A DNA stretch of 64,000 nucleotides from Microthrixaceae bacterium (GTDB taxonomy: Bacteria; Actinomycetota; Acidimicrobiia; Acidimicrobiales; Acidimicrobilacustridaceae): assembly GCA_947446975.1 (NCBI GenBank), contig CANFHM010000004.1:1-64000 (forward strand). Reading direction: 5' to 3'. This document shows positions 14,067-42,912 of this stretch, piece by piece (the first letter of the stretch is position 1; every line of letters starts with the position of its first letter). Under the pieces are notes generated by a model. It ran no database searches. It was not told where the DNA came from and saw only the letters and a program-made list of their open reading frames with translations. A program made the translations under genes and the position numbers.

Positions 14067-14807
14067 TCAGCGGTCGAGCACGGTGACCGATCGCAGACGG
14101 CGCTCGAGATGGTGCTCCACGGCACGGGTGGCGAGATGGTCGATCTCGGCCGATGCCGCGGAGGGCTCGGCGGCGAGTGCCTCGTTGAGACGTCCGCCGA
14201 GGATCTGCTGCAGCAGCGCCACGGCGTCGGGTGACACCGCTGTCCCCCGTCGGCATTCGTGACACAGCAACCCACCGCTGTCGAGATCGAAGGCCACCAG
14301 CGCCACCGTGGCATCGGCGGGACCGCCCTCCCCGCACAGCACGCACCGATCCACCTCGGGTCGATAGCCCTCGAGCGCGAGCACCTTCCAGAAGAACGCC
14401 GGGACCACGAGCGGCGAATGGGAGGCGTCGAGCGTGCGCAGCGCACCGAGCAGCATCTCGTAGAGCCGGGGGTTCACCGCCCCCTCCTGGGCCAGCTGAT
14501 CCGCGGTCTCGAGCATGGCCGAGGCTCTGGCGATGCGATCGAGATCATCACGCAGACCCCGGAAGTGGTCGATGCTGTCGACCTGGGTGACGAGATCGAG
14601 CTCACGACCCTCGTAGAGCTGCAGTGCGACATGACTCATCGGCTCGAGCCGGGATCCGAACTTGGAGCGGGTCTTGCGCACACCCTTGGCCACCGCCCGC
14701 ACCTTGCCGCGCCGGCGGGTGAGGAACACGATGATGCGATCGGCCTCGCCGAGGCGATAGGTGCGCAGCACGATCCCCTCATCGCGATGGATCGTGCCCC
14801 GACTCAT
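14067..14807 (-). CDS. recO: DNA repair protein RecO
   Basis: A 246-residue RecO: N-terminal OB fold (GIVLRTYRLGEADRIIVFLT), a conserved mid-region (GLRDDLDRIARASAMLE), and a four-cysteine zinc site (CVLCGEGG ... LLCHECRRG). It helps RecR load RecA at gapped DNA. The frame is open far upstream because it runs through uppS in another frame; the ATG at 14807 (MSRGTIHRDEG) is chosen because it begins the OB fold and follows the uppS stop by seven bases. Co-transcribed with uppS. Confidence 0.93.
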   Translation of the reverse strand: MSRGTIHRDEGIVLRTYRLGEADRIIVFLTRRRGKVRAVAKGVRKTRSKFGSRLEPMSHVALQLYEGRELDLVTQVDSIDHFRGLRDDLDRIARASAMLETADQLAQEGAVNPRLYEMLLGALRTLDASHSPLVVPAFFWKVLALEGYRPEVDRCVLCGEGGPADATVALVAFDLDSGGLLCHECRRGTAVSPDAVALLQQILGGRLNEALAAEPSAASAEIDHLATRAVEHHLERRLRSVTVLDR

Positions 14808-14814
14808 CGCAGGA

Positions 14815-15537
14815 TCATTCGTCGGAGAGTCCGCCGAAGCGGCGATCCCGGGCCTGGTACTCGCGCACCGCGTCGAAGAGGTGCTCGCGACGGAAATCGG
14901 GCCACAGGACATCGGTGAACACGAGCTCGCTGTAGGCCGCCTCCCACATGAGGTAGTTCGACAGCCGGTACTCCCCCGAGGTGCGCACGAGCAGCTCGGG
15001 ATCGGGCATGTCGGGGGCATAGAGGCGCTTGGCGATGGTCTTCTCGTCGATCCTGTCGGCGGCGATGCCCTCGCGGACGATCTGCCGCACGGCGTCGACC
15101 AGCTCGGCCCTGCCGCCGTAGTTGAACGCGATCGTGAGGGTGAGCGTCCGGTTCTTCTTCGTGAGTTCGATGGACTCATCGATCCGACGCAGCAGCCGCT
15201 TCGGGACCCGCCAGTCGCGCCTTCCGATGAAGCGGATCCGCACACCCTTGGCGTTCAGTTCGTCGCGGCGGCGCACCAGCAGCGACTCGTTGAACCCCAT
15301 GAGGTACCGGACCTCATCGACCGGGCGACGCCAGTTCTCGGTGGAGAACGCATAGACGGTGAGCCAGGAGCTGCCGAGGTCGAGAGCGCCGTCGATGGCA
15401 TCCATCAGCGCCTCCTCGCCGGCGGCGTGCCCCTCGGTGCGCTTGAGGCCCCGACGCTGGGCCCATCGACCATTGCCATCCATGACCGCGGCGATGTGCA
15501 CGGGGATTCGGGTCGGATCGATGCCGGGGACGTCCAC
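14815..15537 (-). CDS. uppS: isoprenyl transferase (undecaprenyl/decaprenyl diphosphate synthase)
   Basis: A 240-residue cis-prenyltransferase. HIAAVMDGNGRWA carries the catalytic Asp, FSTENWRRP and RTSGEYRLSNYLMW the substrate-binding residues, and WPDF the C-terminal motif. It makes the polyprenyl diphosphate carrier for peptidoglycan and other wall polymers. The start is GTG, preceded at six bases by TAACCT (leaderless type). It is divergent from the helicase gene across 51 bases. Confidence 0.94.
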   Translation of the reverse strand: MDVPGIDPTRIPVHIAAVMDGNGRWAQRRGLKRTEGHAAGEEALMDAIDGALDLGSSWLTVYAFSTENWRRPVDEVRYLMGFNESLLVRRRDELNAKGVRIRFIGRRDWRVPKRLLRRIDESIELTKKNRTLTLTIAFNYGGRAELVDAVRQIVREGIAADRIDEKTIAKRLYAPDMPDPELLVRTSGEYRLSNYLMWEAAYSELVFTDVLWPDFRREHLFDAVREYQARDRRFGGLSDE

Positions 15538-34982: not shown

Positions 34983-35633
34983 CTACGGCGCCACGATGGC
35001 GGCGCGCAGGAACGACAGCAGCTCGCGGCGACGCACCACCGTGGAGCGGGCGGTGGGTTCGAAGCCCACAGCCCGCAGCACCTCGACCTCGGTGGCGGCA
35101 CCGAGCACCGTCGAGTAGGCGCTCACGAACAACAGCCCGGGATCACAGCGGCGGAACCGACCGGCATCCATCTCGCGCTGCAGGAAGCCGCGGGCACGAG
35201 CCACGAACGGTTCCAGATCGGCGGAGATGCGCGCCGCCGCATCGCCACCCAGCCGACTGACCTCGCGCACGAAGCCGAGCAGCTCGGGTCGGCGGATGGC
35301 CACACGGAACACCGAACGCACGATCGCCTCGATGCGATCCCATCCCTCGCCGGCATCGCGCAGCACACCGTCGAACTCCACCACGAGATCGAGACAGGCG
35401 TGATCGATGACGGCATCGAGCAGGGCGGCCTTCGAGGGCCAGTGATAGAGGATCGCCTGCTTCGACAGGCCGAGGCCGGCGGCCAGTGCGTCGAGAGACG
35501 TCGCGTCGTAGCCGGCGGTGCCGAATGACTCGAGGGCGGCGGTGAGGATGCGGTGCTCGGTCTCGCGGGTGCGTGCCGCCCGGGATCCGGGCATGCGGTC
35601 CGGCTTGGCGGGAGCAGTCACGGTGGCGGCCAC
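34983..35633 (-). CDS. TetR family transcriptional regulator
   Basis: A 216-residue regulator. The N-terminal HTH (HRILTAALESFGTAGYDATS, then LGLSKQAILYHWPSKAALL) covers residues 27-70; the C-terminal helical ligand domain is too divergent to identify a ligand. The gene is divergent from the acyl-reductase operon with a palindromic operator between them, so it probably represses both. ATG 35633 is used; an internal ATG (MPGSRAAR) is possible. Confidence 0.9.
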   Translation of the reverse strand: MAATVTAPAKPDRMPGSRAARTRETEHRILTAALESFGTAGYDATSLDALAAGLGLSKQAILYHWPSKAALLDAVIDHACLDLVVEFDGVLRDAGEGWDRIEAIVRSVFRVAIRRPELLGFVREVSRLGGDAAARISADLEPFVARARGFLQREMDAGRFRRCDPGLLFVSAYSTVLGAATEVEVLRAVGFEPTARSTVVRRRELLSFLRAAIVAP

Positions 35634-35655: not shown

Positions 35656-35669
35656 TTACCAAGTGGTAA
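35656..35669. promoter_or_regulatory. probable TetR operator
   Basis: The 14-base palindrome TTACCA-AG-TGGTAA lies between the divergent TetR gene and the acyl-reductase operon, 10 bases before the GTG at 35680. Sequences of this kind are typical TetR-family operators. It is the only copy seen. Confidence 0.72.
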
Positions 35670-35679
35670 ACATTCATCC

Positions 35680-38037
35680 GTGATCGCTGACTCCCTCGCC
35701 GGCCGACGCCTGTTCATCACCGGCACCACCGGCTTCCTCGGCACCAACCTCCTCGAACGTCTGCTGCGCAGCGTCCCGGACTGCGAGCTCGTGCTGCTCG
35801 TGCGCGCCGGCCGCCGCTCCACCGTCGAGCAGCGACTGGCCCGCGAGATCCTCAAGAACGACGCCTTCGACCGACTGCGTGCCGAGCTCGGCAAGGAGGG
35901 CTTCGCCGAGATGGCCGCCCGCCGCATCACCGCGGTGGCCGGCGATGTGGGCCGCGACGGCCTGGGCCTCGATGCCGCCGGCCGTGAGCTGTTCGCCTCC
36001 TGCGACACCATCATCCATTCGGCGGCCACCGTGAGCTTCGACTCACCACTCGACTCCGCGGTCGAGGTCAACCTCATGGGCCCCACCCGCATCGCCCAGC
36101 TGTGCACCGAGCTCCGCGTCACGCCGCATCTCGTCGCCGTGTCCACCTGTTACGTGGCCGGCAACCGTCGCGGCACCGCCCCCGAGATCATGGTCGACGA
36201 GAGCCCGTTCTTCGTCGACGTCGACTGGCGGGGCGAGGTCGAGGGCGCCCGTCGGGCCCGTCGAGACGCCGATGCCGAGAGCCGCACCCCCGAGAAGCTC
36301 GAAGCGTTCCGGGACGATGCCCGCCGCGAGCTCGGCGCCGCCGGCACCCCGCTGCTGGCCGAGAAGACCGAGAGCCTGCGCATCAAGTGGGTCTCCGATC
36401 GCATGGTCGAGACCGGCCGGGCCCGCGCCGCATCACTGGGCTGGCCCGATGCCTACGCCTACTCCAAGGCGCTCGGCGAACGGGCGCTGCTCGAGAACCG
36501 CGGCGATGTGCCCGTCAGCATCGTGCGTCCCTCCATCATCGAATCCGCGCTCGCCGAACCGGTGCCGGGCTGGATCCGAGGCTTCCGCATGGCCGAGCCC
36601 ATCATCATCAGCTACGCCCGCGGCCTGCTCAAACAGTTCCCCGGCGTGCCCGAGGGCATCGTCGACGTCATCCCCGTCGATCTCGTGTCGGCCGCCATCA
36701 TCGCCGTGGCCGCCAAGGGCCCCGAGCCCGAGCCCGAGGTCGTGCAGGTGGCATCGGGGTCGCGCAACCCCCTCCACTACCGCCGTCTCGTCGATCTGGT
36801 GAGCGACTGGTTCGGCGAGCACCCGCTGTACGACACCAAGGGTCAGCCGATCATGGTGCCGAAGTGGTCGTTCGGTGGCCGGGGTGATGTCAAGGATCAG
36901 CTGCGCCGGGCCACGAAGTCGCTGAGCCGGGCGGAGTCCGTGCTGGGCGCACTCCCCCTGCGGGGCAGGCAGGCCGAGTTCGGCACCTCCCTCGAGGAGA
37001 AGCGCGAGGAGGCCGAACGGGCACTCGGCTACGTCGAGATCTACGGGGCCTATGCCGAATGCGAGGCGATCTACGGACTCGACCGTCTCATCGCCCTGTG
37101 GGAGGCACAGACCCCCGACGATCAGCGGGACTTCTGCTTCGACCCCCGGGTCATCGAATGGGACTCCTTCGTCCGCGAGATCCATCTGCCCTCGGTGGTG
37201 AAGCAGGCCCGCGTGCGCACCACGCCGGGCGGCAAGGTCGGTCCCACCCGCGAACAGCGCCTCCGCACCCAGGTGCTCGCCCCCGAGCGGCAGTTCGCCG
37301 CCTTCGATCTCGAGAACACGCTCATCGCCTCCAACGTGGTCACGAGCTACGCGTTCCTCGCCACCCGTCGTCTCCCCCGCGCCGACCGCATCCGATTCGC
37401 CACCTCGCTCATCGCCGAGGGCCCCTCGCTGCTGTCGCTCGATCGCAGGGACCGCAGTGATTTCCTGCGCATGTTCTACCGACGCTACGACGGCGCTCCC
37501 GTCCAGCAGATCGACGAGGACGCCGCCGAGATGTTCAGTCGTCTCATCATCGCCAAGTCGTTCCCGGCGGCCATCCGTCGGGTGCGGGCCCATCGGGCGG
37601 CCGGCCATCGCACCGTGCTCATCACCGGCGCCCTCAGCTTCGTGGTCAAGCCGCTCGAGCCGCTGTTCGACGACATCATCGCCGCCGAGATGGCCGTGGA
37701 ACGCGGCGTGTACAACGGCGAGCTCCGCAGCGTGCCCCCCACCGGTGAGAGCCGGGCCCAGGCCCTGTTCGACTACGCCGATGCGCATGGTCTCGACGTG
37801 CGCGAGGGCGTGGCCTATGCGGACTCCACCTCGGATCTCCCGATGCTCGAGGCCGTCGGGTTCCCGGTCGCCGTCAATCCCGAGACCCGCCTCGCCACAC
37901 TGGCCCGCAAGCGCGGCTGGCTCGTCGAGCAGTGGGCCAAGGCGCCCGGCGCGCCGCGCACGCTCATCCCGATCGGCCCGCGCCGCGGTCGCACCGGTGG
38001 CCTCGCCAACCCGCTCGTGCCCGGAGGTCGGGCATGA
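35680..38037 (+). CDS. fatty-acyl-reductase-like SDR fused to HAD-IB domain
   Basis: A 785-residue two-domain protein. Residues 1-450 are an extended SDR of the fatty acyl-CoA reductase type, with GTTGFLGTNLLERLL near 15 and YAYSKALGE near 260 (catalytic Tyr/Lys). Residues 535-770 are a HAD-IB phosphatase-like domain with GVAYADSTSDLPMLEA as motif IV. The HAD nucleophile motif reads D543-L-E545 instead of DxD, so the general acid is Glu. GTG start behind the TetR operator. It heads a five-gene operon and probably reduces acyl-CoA or acyl-ACP; the HAD activity is uncertain. Confidence 0.85.
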   Translation: MIADSLAGRRLFITGTTGFLGTNLLERLLRSVPDCELVLLVRAGRRSTVEQRLAREILKNDAFDRLRAELGKEGFAEMAARRITAVAGDVGRDGLGLDAAGRELFASCDTIIHSAATVSFDSPLDSAVEVNLMGPTRIAQLCTELRVTPHLVAVSTCYVAGNRRGTAPEIMVDESPFFVDVDWRGEVEGARRARRDADAESRTPEKLEAFRDDARRELGAAGTPLLAEKTESLRIKWVSDRMVETGRARAASLGWPDAYAYSKALGERALLENRGDVPVSIVRPSIIESALAEPVPGWIRGFRMAEPIIISYARGLLKQFPGVPEGIVDVIPVDLVSAAIIAVAAKGPEPEPEVVQVASGSRNPLHYRRLVDLVSDWFGEHPLYDTKGQPIMVPKWSFGGRGDVKDQLRRATKSLSRAESVLGALPLRGRQAEFGTSLEEKREEAERALGYVEIYGAYAECEAIYGLDRLIALWEAQTPDDQRDFCFDPRVIEWDSFVREIHLPSVVKQARVRTTPGGKVGPTREQRLRTQVLAPERQFAAFDLENTLIASNVVTSYAFLATRRLPRADRIRFATSLIAEGPSLLSLDRRDRSDFLRMFYRRYDGAPVQQIDEDAAEMFSRLIIAKSFPAAIRRVRAHRAAGHRTVLITGALSFVVKPLEPLFDDIIAAEMAVERGVYNGELRSVPPTGESRAQALFDYADAHGLDVREGVAYADSTSDLPMLEAVGFPVAVNPETRLATLARKRGWLVEQWAKAPGAPRTLIPIGPRRGRTGGLANPLVPGGRA

Positions 38038-39251
38038 GGGCGCTCCGGTTCGAACGCAACGTCCCGCGCTTCGCGGCGGCCAACCTCGCCAGTCGTCTCG
38101 CCCCGGGCGGCGGGGCCAAGATCGGCCCGCTCCGTCTTCGCGACATCGATGCTCCCCATCTCCCCGGCGAGGGCTGGGTCGAGGTGCTCCCCCGCCTCGC
38201 TGGCATCTGTGGTTCCGATCTCGCCACCATCGAGGCCCGCAGCTCGCGCTATTTCGAGCCGATCGTGTCGTTCCCGTTCGTGCCGGGCCATGAGGTCGTG
38301 GCCGATCTGCGCGAGTCCGCGGGCGACATCCCCGCCGGTCGGGTCGTCATCGAGCCGGTGCTCGGATGCGTCACCCGTGGCATCGATCCGGTGTGCCCGG
38401 CCTGTGCCCGTGGCGATCTCGGCAACTGCGAACGCATCGCCTTCGGCGCCATCGAACCCGGTCTGCAGAGCGGATTCTGCTGCGACACCGGTGGCGGCTG
38501 GTCCACCCGGATGGTCGCCCATGTCAGCCAGCTGCACGCCGTGCCCGAGAGCTGGACCGATGAGGCGGCCGTGATGGTCGAGCCCACTGCATGCGCAGTG
38601 CATGGTGCACTCGCCGCCGATGTGGCAGAGGGCGATCTCGTCGTGGTCCTCGGTTCCGGTGCGCTCGGTCTGCTCACCATCGCCGCGCTGCGTCGCTTCG
38701 GCCGCCCCTGCACGATCATGGCGGTGGCCAAACACCCCACCCAGCAGCGGCTCGCCCTGGCGCTCGGCGCTGATGCGGTGGTGCTGCCCCATGAGCTCAC
38801 CCGTGCCGTGCGCCGCGCCAGCGGCTCACTCGCCCTCGGCGACGGCGACATCATCCGCCTCACGGGTGGTGCCGACCATGTCATCGACTGCGTCGGCAGC
38901 GAAGCGAGCCTCACCGAGGCCCTCGGGGTGGTGCGCCCCCGTGGTCGCATCACCATGGTCGGCATGCCCGGGCAGGTGTCGGTCGATCTCACCGGACTGT
39001 GGCAGCGCGAGATCCTCCTCGCCGGCGCCTACGCCTACGGCACCGAGACCCTCCCCTCCGGCGAGCGCCGTCGCACCTTCGACCTGGCGATCGAACTCGT
39101 GGCCGCCGCCGACCTCGGCCGTCTCGTGAGCGCCACCTATCCCCTGTCGCAGTACGAGACCGCCATCACCCATGCCGCCACCGCCGGCGCCCGCGGCGCT
39201 GTTCGCATCGCCTTCGATCTCCGCAACGAAAAGGAACGTGACCGTGCCTAG
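38034..39251 (+). CDS. zinc-dependent medium-chain alcohol dehydrogenase
   Basis: A 405-residue MDR dehydrogenase. Catalytic zinc ligands lie in ICGSDLATIE and PGHEVV; four cysteines in GCVTRGIDPVCPACARG and GNC match the structural zinc lobe. The NAD(P) fold has VVVLGSGALGLLTIAALRRF near residue 203. Four-base overlap with the acyl-reductase gene and seven-base overlap with the LarA-like gene. The likely role is redox of a long-chain alcohol or aldehyde in the same pathway. Confidence 0.87.
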   Translation: MRALRFERNVPRFAAANLASRLAPGGGAKIGPLRLRDIDAPHLPGEGWVEVLPRLAGICGSDLATIEARSSRYFEPIVSFPFVPGHEVVADLRESAGDIPAGRVVIEPVLGCVTRGIDPVCPACARGDLGNCERIAFGAIEPGLQSGFCCDTGGGWSTRMVAHVSQLHAVPESWTDEAAVMVEPTACAVHGALAADVAEGDLVVVLGSGALGLLTIAALRRFGRPCTIMAVAKHPTQQRLALALGADAVVLPHELTRAVRRASGSLALGDGDIIRLTGGADHVIDCVGSEASLTEALGVVRPRGRITMVGMPGQVSVDLTGLWQREILLAGAYAYGTETLPSGERRRTFDLAIELVAAADLGRLVSATYPLSQYETAITHAATAGARGAVRIAFDLRNEKERDRA

Positions 39252-40839
39252 ACCAGGGTTCGTACTCGACGTCGATCGCTCGACCCCCCCGATCCTCTTC
39301 CATCATGGCGAGGGCTTCCGTCTCGAGCGGCTGCCCGCCGGCCGCAGCCGCGTCATCTACCCGGCCGAGCCCATCGAGCCGCTCAAGAACCCCGACGCCG
39401 CCATCCGCCATGCGCTGGTGAACCCCATCGGCGACAGCGAGCCGCTCACGGCGCTGCTGAAGCCGGGCATGAAGCTCACCATCGCGTTCGACGACATCTC
39501 GTTGCCGCTGCCCCCGATGAAGCGCCCCGACATCCGTCAGCGCGTCATCGAAGCCGTGCTCGAACTCGCTGCGGCCGCCGGCGTCGATGACGTCATGCTC
39601 ATCGCCGCACTCGCACTGCATCGGCGCATGACCGAGGCCGAGCTGCGTCATGCCGTGGGCGATCGCGTCTACGACTCCTTCGCCCCCCATGGGCTGCTGC
39701 TCAACCACGACGCCGAGGATCCCGACAACCTCCTCTTCATCGGCACCACCGAGAAGGGCGAGGAGGTCGAGATCAACAAGCGGGCCGCCGAGAGCGACCT
39801 CATCGTGTACGTCAACATCAACCTCGTCTCCATGGACGGCGGCTGGAAGTCCACCGCCACCGGCCTCGCCAGCTACCGCTCGCTGCGCCATCACCACAAC
39901 GTGCGCACCATGCGTCATTCGAAGTCGTTCATGGACCGCCACGCGTCGGAACTGCACTCGGCCAACTGGCGCATGGGCGAGGTGCTCAAGAACGCCGGGG
40001 TCAAGGTCTTCCAGATCGAGACCACCATGAACAACAACGTGTTCGGCACCGAGGGCCCCATGAGCGTGCTGCAGAAGCGCGAATGGGAATGGAGCCTCAC
40101 CGATCGCATCTCGATGGCCGGCATGAAGACCGCTCTCGACCTCATGCCCCAGCGCACCCGACGTCAGATCTTCCAGAACTGGCAGGCACCGCACGCCATG
40201 ACCTCCGTGCAGGCCGGCGAGGTCGAGGCGGTGCATGAACTCACCACCGCCAACGTCTACAAGCAGCACCTCGTGGACGTCGAGGGTCAGACCGACATCA
40301 TGACGATGGGCCTGCCGTACATCAGTCCCTACAACGTCAACTCGATCCTCAACCCGATCCTCGTGGCCTGTCTCGGACTCGGGTACTTCTTCAACCTGTA
40401 CCGCGGGAAGCCACCTGTGCGTGAGGGCGGTGTGCTCATCATGAGCCATCCCACCCCATGGGAGTTCCACCCGGTGCACCATCCCAGCTACATCGACTTC
40501 TTCGAACAGGTGCTGTCGCAGACCACCGACCCGATCCGCATCGAAGCCGAGTTCGAGAAGTCCTTCGCCGAGGACGAGTGGTACCGCCATCTCTATCGCA
40601 CCAGCCACGCCTATCACGGCGTGCACCCGTTCTACATGTGGTATTGGTGCTCGCACGCCCTGCAGCATCTCGGTCAGGTGATCATCGTGGGTGGCGATGT
40701 CCGTGCGGTCCGTCGACTCGGGTTCAAACCGGCCAGCACCCTGCAGGACGCCCTCGAGATGGCCAGCGATGTCGTGGGTCGCGACGCCACCATCACCCAC
40801 ATCCACAATCCGCCCATCCTCATGGCCGACGTGCACTGA
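39244..40839 (+). CDS. LarA-like (lactate racemase / DUF2088) protein
   Basis: A 531-residue protein whose N-terminal half matches LarA: AFDDISLPLPPMKRPDI, LALHRRMTE, and MDGGWKSTATG. His126, Lys202 and His218 keep LarA spacing exactly (H108, K184, H200; 76 and 16 apart); in LarA K184 holds the nickel-pincer nucleotide and H200 coordinates nickel. The second catalytic histidine (H174, ten residues before the lysine) is replaced by Ile192. It is therefore likely to use the nickel pincer but not to be a racemase. The C-terminal part is unrecognised. GTG 39244 is eight bases from AAAAGGA. Confidence 0.82.
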   Translation: MPRPGFVLDVDRSTPPILFHHGEGFRLERLPAGRSRVIYPAEPIEPLKNPDAAIRHALVNPIGDSEPLTALLKPGMKLTIAFDDISLPLPPMKRPDIRQRVIEAVLELAAAAGVDDVMLIAALALHRRMTEAELRHAVGDRVYDSFAPHGLLLNHDAEDPDNLLFIGTTEKGEEVEINKRAAESDLIVYVNINLVSMDGGWKSTATGLASYRSLRHHHNVRTMRHSKSFMDRHASELHSANWRMGEVLKNAGVKVFQIETTMNNNVFGTEGPMSVLQKREWEWSLTDRISMAGMKTALDLMPQRTRRQIFQNWQAPHAMTSVQAGEVEAVHELTTANVYKQHLVDVEGQTDIMTMGLPYISPYNVNSILNPILVACLGLGYFFNLYRGKPPVREGGVLIMSHPTPWEFHPVHHPSYIDFFEQVLSQTTDPIRIEAEFEKSFAEDEWYRHLYRTSHAYHGVHPFYMWYWCSHALQHLGQVIIVGGDVRAVRRLGFKPASTLQDALEMASDVVGRDATITHIHNPPILMADVH

Positions 40840-40850
40840 GCGACGTGACC

Positions 40851-41837
40851 ATGGCCCGCATGCCCATCAACCGGTCGCAGACCACCTCGGTCATGAAGCG
40901 ACTCCCCATCAACCGGATGGTCGCCAACACCGTCGGCCGTTCCAGCGCGTCGGTCGGTCGGATCGCCCGTTCGGTCCTCTCCGAACCCACCGTGCCGGCG
41001 GGTGTGCAGATCGAGCCGCGGCCCAGCGCCGTCGGCGCCAACTACGACACCGAATGGGCCCGCACCTATCCCGCCCGGTTCGCCCGTCTGCTGGTCCGGA
41101 CGCTCGTGATGAAGCCCATCGTCGACGCACTGGCCAGCCCGAGGATCATCGGAGCGGAGCGACTCGCCGATGTCGACGGCCCGGTCATCTTCGCCGCCAA
41201 CCATCGCAGCCACGCCGATACGCCGCTCATGATGACCGCCGTGCCCGAACCCTGGCGCGACCGACTCTTCATCGGCGCCGCCGCTGATTACTGGTTCACC
41301 AACCGCCTCACCTCGCCGTTCTCCGCCCTCGTCATCGGTGCCATCCCGGTGGAGCGTCGGAAGGTGTCACGCACCGCCATCGACACCTCGCTCGAACTTC
41401 TCGGCGAGGGCTGGTCGATGCTGATCTTCCCGGAGGGTGCCCGCTCCCCCGACGGTTGGGCGCAGGAGTTCACCGCCGGCGCGGCGTTCCTGGCCATCCG
41501 ATCCGGTGTGCCCATCGTCCCGGTGTTCCTGATCGGCACCGATGCGGTCTGGCCGAAGGGTTCGAAGCTCCCCCGGCGGGCGGAGGCCACTGTCGTGTTC
41601 GGCTCACCGATCACGGCCCTGCCCACCGACGACAACCGGTCGTTCGCGGCACGGATCGAGCTCGCCGTCGCCATGGTCGCCGACGAGCACAGCACCGACT
41701 GGTGGCAGGCCCGACAGCGCGCCGCCGCCGGCACGACACCATCACTGCAGGGTCCGCCGGCCGCATCCTGGCGACGTGCATGGGCCCGCACCGAGCCACG
41801 ACGCAGTGGCGGGCGTCGCTCATGGCCATCGGTCTGA
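40851..41837 (+). CDS. lysophospholipid acyltransferase (PlsC-like)
   Basis: A 328-residue acyltransferase. The catalytic HX4D motif is NHRSHAD (His118, Asp123), followed by FPEGARSP near residue 195 and VPIVPVFLIG near 220. It transfers acyl chains to lysophosphatidate or a related acceptor at the membrane. A basic N-terminal 90 residues (MPINRSQTTSVMKRLPINR) precedes the fold, and a basic tail follows it. Eleven bases after the LarA-like stop, so part of the same operon. Confidence 0.88.
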   Translation: MARMPINRSQTTSVMKRLPINRMVANTVGRSSASVGRIARSVLSEPTVPAGVQIEPRPSAVGANYDTEWARTYPARFARLLVRTLVMKPIVDALASPRIIGAERLADVDGPVIFAANHRSHADTPLMMTAVPEPWRDRLFIGAAADYWFTNRLTSPFSALVIGAIPVERRKVSRTAIDTSLELLGEGWSMLIFPEGARSPDGWAQEFTAGAAFLAIRSGVPIVPVFLIGTDAVWPKGSKLPRRAEATVVFGSPITALPTDDNRSFAARIELAVAMVADEHSTDWWQARQRAAAGTTPSLQGPPAASWRRAWARTEPRRSGGRRSWPSV

Positions 41838-41859: not shown

Positions 41860-42339
41860 ATGAGCGCCGCCGGCATCGGATACAGCGCCGCAGCGGTCCT
41901 GGCCGCGCTCTTCGCCACGGCGTCGATCGCCAAGCTGCGTGATCTCCCCGCCACGCTGCAGCAGTTCACGGCGCTCGGGCTGCCCCGTCCGGGGGTGTTC
42001 ACCCGTCTCGTGCCGCTCGCCGAACTCGCGCTCGTCGTCCTGCTGCTCATCGTTCCCGCCGTCGGTGCGATCTTCGCTCTGGTCACACTCGCTTTCTTCA
42101 CCACGTTCCTCGTCGGTCGGATCCGGGCGGGGGTCACCGCTCCCTGCGCCTGCTTCGGTGCGACGGTGAGCACACCGCTGTCGCGGGTCGACATCGTCCG
42201 CAACCTGCTGCTCGCCGGTCTCGCCGGCCTCGCCCTCATGGCCAGCCGACCGATCGCTCCGGGTGCAGCCGATCTCCTCGCCATGGCGGTGCTGCTGCTG
42301 GTCGGCACCGGACTGCTCGCACTGCTGCGCCGCCGATAG
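41860..42339 (+). CDS. MauE/DoxX-like membrane protein
   Basis: A 159-residue protein with four hydrophobic helices. The loop APCACFGATVSTPLS carries a CxCFG motif found in MauE/DoxX-like proteins associated with quinone or disulphide chemistry. The function here is unknown. Twenty-two bases after the acyltransferase, same strand, possibly the last gene of the operon. Confidence 0.75.
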   Translation: MSAAGIGYSAAAVLAALFATASIAKLRDLPATLQQFTALGLPRPGVFTRLVPLAELALVVLLLIVPAVGAIFALVTLAFFTTFLVGRIRAGVTAPCACFGATVSTPLSRVDIVRNLLLAGLAGLALMASRPIAPGAADLLAMAVLLLVGTGLLALLRRR

Positions 42340-42351
42340 CCTCTCGGCACC

Positions 42352-42912
42352 ATGACCGATCCGTGGGGCAACCCCCTCCCCCAGCCGAACGAACCGCCGG
42401 CAGCCGCACCGACTCCGCCGGCGCCTCCGGCAGCTCGGTCGTCCGCTCCGGCACCGCCCCCTCCGCCGCCGAGCCCGGTCCCTGCCCCGCCCGACCCGGC
42501 ATGGCCCGGTGCAACAACAGCCCCGCCACCTCCCCTCGCGGCGCAGAACGCCGCATGGCCGGCGTCGCCCCCTCCGCAGATCCAGCTGCCACGGAACTCC
42601 GGCGCGGCGGTGGCGTCGCTCGTGCTCGGCATCACCTCGCTGACCTGCTCGGGCTATCTCGGATTCATCCTCGCCCCGCTCGCCGTGATCTTCGGGGTGC
42701 GGGCCCGCCGCACCATCGCCGCCTCCAACGGCTGGCGCCGCGGCGACGGCATGGCCGTGGCCGGCATCGTGCTCGGCATCATCGGCATCGTGGTGTCGGT
42801 GGTGTATCTCGTGTTCATCCTGCGCAATCCGCACTTCCTGCAGGATCTCCTCGATCGGATGAGCACCACCACCACGGTCGACACCGGTCGGTCCGGTCTG
42901 AACAACGCCTGA
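42352..42912 (+). CDS. DUF4190-type membrane protein with Pro-rich N-terminus
   Basis: A 186-residue protein. Residues 1-75 are Pro/Ala-rich and soluble; residues 82-150 hold two helices (GAAVASLVLGITSLTCSGYL and GMAVAGIVLGIIGIVVSVVY), joined by the loop RARRTIAASNGWRRGDG. This is the DUF4190 arrangement, function unknown. TAGCCT nine bases upstream could be its -10. The stop codon lies inside the first unit of an 11-base repeat. Confidence 0.82.
   Translation: MTDPWGNPLPQPNEPPAAAPTPPAPPAARSSAPAPPPPPPSPVPAPPDPAWPGATTAPPPPLAAQNAAWPASPPPQIQLPRNSGAAVASLVLGITSLTCSGYLGFILAPLAVIFGVRARRTIAASNGWRRGDGMAVAGIVLGIIGIVVSVVYLVFILRNPHFLQDLLDRMSTTTTVDTGRSGLNNA

Follow-up and report, generated by a model that had tools for sequence, protein, structure and literature searches.

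A conserved actinobacterial cassette joining a LarA homologue to lipid enzymes, with a tentative assignment to ether glycerolipid formation

Among homologues of the lactate racemase LarA, the LarAH14/15/16 family (NF052592) carries the name 'hydroxyacid isomerase', yet the one member tested, LarAH14 of Frankia, was purified and proved inactive on hydroxyacids in seven assays. In its main text that study (PMC7583248) describes no operon with a fatty acyl-CoA reductase (FAR) and an acyltransferase. The nearest structural relatives, single-histidine LarAs of Streptococcus plurextorum and Blautia wexlerae (9q2u, 9q3k, 9q3j), were solved in 2025, with sugar- and triose-phosphate gene contexts for 9q3k and 9q3j (PMC12611868). 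A separate body of work on bacterial ether lipids has described the myxobacterial elb operon, which groups FAR, HAD, acyltransferase, and NAD-dehydrogenase functions (PMC9131029). This article concerns a 64,000-nucleotide stretch (the window) of a Microthrixaceae bacterium draft genome (GCA_947446975.1, contig CANFHM010000004.1, positions 1 to 64,000), in which a LarAH14/15/16 member is encoded together with a FAR-HAD fusion, a zinc-type dehydrogenase, and a PlsC-type acyltransferase, next to a divergent TetR-family regulator.

That these genes form a real conserved cassette is near certain. The interpretation that we put first, tentatively and with somewhat less than even confidence, is that of a TetR-autoregulated, glycerolipid-modifying operon that would give an alkyl (ether) glycerolipid, with LarA performing hidden redox chemistry on the backbone. 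Within it, a glycerolipid product appears likely and an ether bond moderately likely, while the reaction proposed for LarA and the role proposed for the HAD domain are speculative. The parts come from known families, and no description of the assembled pathway turned up in the literature that could be searched; LarA and lipid genes were not found together there, in agreement with an earlier reading of the window from its sequence only, which had proposed a pathway to an unusual alcohol, diol, or ether lipid and knew of no described pathway with this combination. That sequence-only reading is partly supported, being right in outline with its product unproven, and neither of the two outcomes that it had named as refuting came about.

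Conservation of the cassette

LarA is present in 55 of 61 sampled relatives, mostly at 69-98% identity, and at least 575 stretches of GTDB genomes encode relatives. Gene order was compared in 80 named loci and in a phylum-wide sample of other loci that extends to 38-45% FAR identity with the window. In the named loci, FAR-HAD lies upstream of LarA on the same strand in all 60 that could be tested, PlsC lies downstream in 72 of 72, and the dehydrogenase gene stands between FAR and LarA in 30 of 60. The phylum-wide sample, in which the outer neighbours differ, keeps the order FAR-HAD, dehydrogenase, LarA (FAR in 22 of 22 loci, dehydrogenase in 20 of 22). When the sets are pooled, FAR is upstream on the same strand in 82 of the 82 testable loci and the dehydrogenase, found between in 50 of them, is optional; PlsC follows LarA in 91 of 91 loci outside one family of another class (f44). 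The neighbourhood survey that the earlier reading had suggested thus found the genes to co-occur in relatives: FAR, LarA, and an acyltransferase are linked, whereas the dehydrogenase is dispensable and PlsC is exchanged for PlsY in f44.

Across 396 Actinomycetota genomes scored for LarA and FAR-HAD, the counts, which are not phylogenetically independent, are 89/3/5/299 (here and below, both / first only / second only / neither). Completeness is 60-79% in the three genomes with LarA only. Of the five with FAR only, three have a contig end within or just past the dehydrogenase gene, and the other two (62% and 77% complete) carry FAR at the edge of a contig. LarA and FAR are correlated in their pairwise identities (r = 0.91). 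Stronger evidence than the counts is physical linkage retained at such divergence without wider synteny.

This linkage bears on the suggestion that the operon makes fatty alcohol, wax ester, or neutral lipid, with FAR supplying the alcohol, PlsC esterifying it, the HAD domain supplying diacylglycerol, and LarA epimerising an unrelated polar head group or acyl precursor. Wax ester synthesis is built around a FAR and an acyltransferase, and Microthrix relatives are lipid accumulators, but the scheme leaves the inseparability of LarA and FAR in all 82 loci unexplained, and neither PlsC nor PlsY is a wax synthase; we consider it rather unlikely.

Two metagenome-assembled genomes, titled 'Bifidobacterium breve' (L040, CAMCTY010000010.1) and 'Acidobacteria bacterium' (L089, JADFOM010000229.1), carry the acidimicrobial cassette with LarA 92% and 76% identical, respectively, and their titles look wrong. 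Sister LarA subfamilies at 32-42% identity occur in other actinobacterial classes (L128, L140-L142, L130; L146-L149) and also have no second histidine; their neighbours are CoA-transferase III, AMP-binding, ferredoxin, or short-chain dehydrogenase/reductase (SDR) genes, and they were set aside for these different neighbours and the absence of FAR-HAD. A search for LarA in a plasmid collection returned ordinary lactate racemases only, at 25-30% identity.

The LarA homologue and its predicted cofactor

The LarA homologue belongs to LarAH14/15/16 by full-length match (891.7 bits against a cut-off of 740, positions 1-519 of 520) and contains a Lar_N domain (PF09861, 3.3e-39). Its AlphaFold model (pLDDT 83, pTM 0.87) has the two-domain LarA fold and matches 9q3k (Z 36.7), 9q3j (33.0), 9eia (31.0), and 5huq (29.3). 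The S. plurextorum and B. wexlerae enzymes are the nearest solved proteins in both fold and sequence, at about 23-26% identity. Asp84, His126, Asn193, Lys202, His218, Tyr363, and His461, invariant in 122 family members, equal Asp73, His115, Asn185, Lys195, His211, Tyr307, and His401 of the S. plurextorum enzyme, with the Asn pairing crossing an alignment gap. Unlike those enzymes, whose context is carbohydrate rather than lipid, the homologue does not keep the phosphate-binding Lys76 and His306 and has a shorter loop before Lys202.

With lactate racemase and the characterised LarA racemases (5huq, 9eia) the protein shares the fold, the cofactor lysine, the nickel-binding histidine, and the first catalytic histidine. 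By homology, Lys202 would tether the nickel-pincer cofactor (NPN) and His218 would bind nickel, and both are present in 122 of 122 members; His126 is the first catalytic histidine, whereas the second is Asn193, in a shortened loop, throughout the same set. Position 87, the arginine that in lactate racemase binds the substrate carboxylate and the NPN phosphate, is Leu in 112 members, Ile in 9, and Cys in 1. The homologue therefore belongs to the single-histidine type within the LarA superfamily and lacks two defining features of 2-hydroxyacid racemases, and such a racemase role is unlikely because the carboxylate arginine is Leu or Ile and the second histidine is Asn. The earlier reading spoke of unknown nickel chemistry; the ground is partly charted by the named family, the tested Frankia member, and the 2025 structures.

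The draft genome encodes one Lar_N protein, that of the operon, and all three of the biosynthesis genes that had been proposed for a search: larB and larC are adjacent, with products above the NCBIfam cut-offs, and LarE scores 287.6 bits. At the class level LarC occurs in 19 of 21 LarA-positive genomes and 0 of 17 LarA-negative ones, and at the phylum level in 81 of 92 LarA-positive genomes; the tracking within the class is expected if the operon's LarA is the client of LarC. Beside larBC, contig C21 of the genome (L003:1-5500) contains long repetitive open reading frames with internal repeats, probably encoding a repetitive surface protein.

About eight LarA-positive genomes, several more than 90% complete, have neither LarC nor LarE detectable (G319, G055, G164, G217, G143, G269, and G237, with G053 among the relatives; L157, L159-L161, L163-L165, L169). 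In the genome of the window larC and larE sit on separate contigs, so it is unlikely that incomplete assembly removed both in every case. These carriers would suit a LarA that no longer uses NPN and now works without a cofactor or with a metal, or serves FAR or PlsC as a structural partner. This is highly improbable given that Lys202, His218, His126, and Asp84 are invariant, with the cofactor ligands intact in those very genomes, that LarC follows LarA within the class, and that the host has LarB, LarC, and LarE for a single LarA.

Evidence bearing on the product

Family f44 has no PlsC; in 26 of 26 loci the immediate neighbour before FAR-HAD is PlsY (TIGR00023, 185 bits, cut-off 137). The two acyltransferases belong to unrelated families but both use a glycerol-phosphate backbone, so the swap points to a glycerolipid. 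A plasmid of Streptomyces sp. NBC_01450 (L158) encodes a FAR-HAD with 36% identity over its full length beside an alkyl-dihydroxyacetone phosphate (DHAP) synthase (AGPS), a PlsC, and an SDR; the synthase matches Dictyostelium ADPS (2uuu) at 1.6e-114 and mammalian AGPS at 8.9e-85. This is the complement of genes with which mammals make ether lipids. Both observations are new here. From the AGPS-type aerobic ether-lipid gene set, the window's operon has FAR, a backbone acyltransferase, and a dehydrogenase; AGPS is not in the operon, the draft genome has no match to it at a threshold of 1e-60, and across the phylum LarA and AGPS are negatively associated (6/86/66/238, p ~6e-4). Taken with the likeness to elb, these results suggest a pathway to a glycerolipid with a chain derived from fatty alcohol, in which LarA and the zinc dehydrogenase may be read as occupying the place held elsewhere by AGPS and SDR. 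As to the unusual alcohol, diol, or ether lipid first proposed, lipid enzymes do share an operon with a LarA-like protein and the PlsY swap and AGPS neighbour tilt the choice towards a predicted ether-type glycerolipid.

On either side of the Streptomyces plasmid FAR-HAD lies a copy of a 264-residue protein (L158:11138-11872 and 14229-15020), the two having diverged to 32% identity; they are possibly ferritin-like, and searches gave no Pfam and no solid PDB match.

In the ether glycerolipid scheme, FAR would reduce acyl-CoA to fatty alcohol, and PlsC, or PlsY in the other lineage, would act on the glycerol-3-phosphate or lysophosphatidate backbone. LarA with NPN would take hydride from the C2 hydroxyl of 1-acyl-glycerol phosphate, His126 acting as the base, to give a transient ketone that would allow the C1 acyl group to be lost, the fatty alcohol to enter, and the hydride to be returned, an ester-to-ether exchange borrowing the transient-oxidation logic of S-adenosylhomocysteine hydrolase. 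An alkyl (ether) glycerolipid would thus arise without the FAD enzyme AGPS. The zinc dehydrogenase, where present, would interconvert C2 alcohol and ketone with NAD(P), and the HAD domain would remove phosphate from an intermediate or from alkyl-acyl phosphatidate. The full claim, that a nickel-pincer enzyme swaps an ester for an ether chain at glycerol by hidden redox at C2, independently of AGPS and of PlsA/Ger, and does so widely in Acidimicrobiia and other actinobacterial classes, must be considered doubtful.

Several points weigh against the ether glycerolipid scheme. If the PlsY of f44 were the acyltransferase that its host uses in general, the link to glycerol would be weaker, though not lost. 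The association of AGPS with FAR-HAD comes from the single Streptomyces locus, where the genes are on opposite strands, and the genomes holding the two AGPS genes nearest to the Streptomyces one have no detectable FAR-HAD; AGPS is also missing from many genomes anyway. We know of no NPN enzyme that acts on lipids or makes C-O bonds. To these are added the non-independence of the genome counts and the carriers without LarC and LarE.

The same evidence can be set against two further explanations. A long-chain 1,2-diol (or 2-hydroxy) lipid could be formed if LarA acted on a 2-hydroxyacyl or 2-hydroxyaldehyde compound, FAR gave the 1,2-diol, and the acyltransferase acylated it in glycerol's place, which would fit both the FAR and acyltransferase pair and the known chemistry of LarA on 2-hydroxy compounds. 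Diol lipids with unassigned genes exist in Thermomicrobium roseum, the genome paper of which leaves those genes open (PMC2615216). This explanation is unlikely, with the carboxylate-binding arginine and second histidine of hydroxyacid LarAs gone and the use of PlsY for PlsC pointing to a glycerol-phosphate acceptor. The swap, in fixing a glycerol backbone, is in turn consistent with isomerisation of that backbone, LarA shifting hydride or stereochemistry at C2 of an acylglycerol (phosphate) while FAR and HAD make a separate alcohol-based head or chain; proposals for single-histidine LarAs include hydride movement to a neighbouring site (PMC7583248) and operation in one direction only (PMC12611868). 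Isomerisation, however, leaves FAR without a clear role and calls for a stereochemically unusual glycerolipid, of which none is known in these bacteria, and it is distinctly improbable.

One large branch of the single-histidine LarAs of nickel enzymology now has fixed partners and a probable glycerol phosphate backbone, which allows candidate substrates to be selected on evidence instead of by guesswork. If the ether glycerolipid scheme is true, the nickel-pincer cofactor would reach beyond small hydroxyacids to lipids, and actinobacteria that are abundant in fresh water, the sea, and soil would carry an overlooked lipid, possibly a biomarker.

Operon layout, regulation, and known ether-lipid systems

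The gene set named in the sequence-only reading is confirmed by domain searches (Table 1), and its gene spacings of -4, -8, and +11 bases, like all its coordinates, match the open reading frame list and the sequence.

Table 1. Features of the operon and its immediate surroundings (window positions)
Feature	Position	Strand and start	Evidence
TetR-family regulator, divergent	34983-35633	-	PF00440, E 1.1e-14
TetR operator (putative), TTACCAAGTGGTAA	35656-35669	.	perfect 14-bp palindrome, ends 10 bp before FAR start codon
FAR-HAD	35680-38037	+, GTG start	PF07993 2.5e-60; PF12710 2.2e-28; TIGR01490 over cut-off
Zinc-type medium-chain dehydrogenase (polyol/threonine dehydrogenase-like)	38034-39251	+	PF00107 2.9e-18
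LarA homologue, LarAH14/15/16 family, single-histidine type	39244-40839	+, GTG start	NF052592, PF09861
PlsC-type acyltransferase (AGPAT-like)	40851-41837	+	PF01553 7.7e-22
MauE/DoxX-like membrane protein	41860-42339		close 3' of PlsC
DUF4190 protein	42352-42912		close 3' of PlsC, beyond MauE-like gene

FAR-HAD comprises a reductase domain (residues 13-340; PF07993, NAD_binding_4, 204 bits), a partial FAR_C region (451-501), and a HAD-IB phosphatase domain (540-737). The GxxGFLG and YxxxK residues are kept in 86 relatives, and Tyr259/Lys263, Asp543, Asp715, and Asp719 in at least 97% of them. The FAR_C (Sterile) match, at 24.3 bits against a cut-off of 35.4, shows local likeness to the C-terminus of 7eoz, which is also the closest solved FAR (7.7e-62). 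HAD motif I (37306-37320, residues 543-547) reads DxENT rather than DxDxT, which is unusual for a HAD phosphatase; of 87 sequences aligned here, 77 have Glu and 9 have Asp at its second acidic position. The dehydrogenase has IolM, L-idonate 5-dehydrogenase, and Tdh as best NCBIfam relatives, all under cut-off, and its Cys59, His86, Glu87, and Glu183 are conserved across relatives, while the PlsC HX4D (His118, Asp123) and PEG-RS motifs are kept in 91 relatives. The MauE-like gene adjoins PlsC in close relatives only.

A palindromic operator had been proposed between the TetR gene and the operon, and it is present, beyond chance, and conserved with TetR. It has 6-bp arms and a 2-bp spacer; TTACCAAGTGGTAA matches the window exactly once, where chance would give 0.08 even if two mismatches were tolerated, and the sole TACCANNTGGTA in the draft genome is this site. 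The form TACCNNNNGGTA (TACC-N4-GGTA) is found 150 bp or less upstream of FAR in 56 of 61 TetR-bearing loci versus 1 of 20 TetR-less loci, against a background of 8 matches in 1.4 Mb of flanking DNA. The consensus across loci is YTACCAAnTGGTAR, usually 22 or 43 bp from the FAR start. A TetR gene accompanies the cassette in most Acidimicrobiales loci and is adjacent or downstream in other classes, where at two loci (L121, L131) it lies 3' of PlsC with the palindrome still before FAR. This conserved putative operator supports TetR control of the operon and, since the strict site is single in the draft genome, local autoregulation is likely. A regulon built on 11 other loose TACC-N4-GGTA sites of the genome was dropped, as these do not have the A/T symmetry of the family consensus. 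Scans for sigma-70 promoters and terminators gave results no better than chance.

The elb and AGPS operons (PMC9131029) resemble this one in clustering a FAR domain, a HAD protein, an acyltransferase, and a dehydrogenase. The window's operon differs in having no acyl-CoA synthetase/ACP domain and no AGPS, in having LarA instead, and in a dehydrogenase of the zinc rather than the short-chain type. The mammalian peroxisomal set (FAR1, GNPAT, AGPS, and acyl/alkyl-DHAP reductase) likewise combines a fatty alcohol supply, a backbone acyltransferase, and a C2 dehydrogenase; in comparison, the operon has no AGPS homologue, and its acyltransferases are of the glycerol-3-phosphate/lysophosphatidate type (PlsC/PlsY) rather than DHAP acyltransferases.

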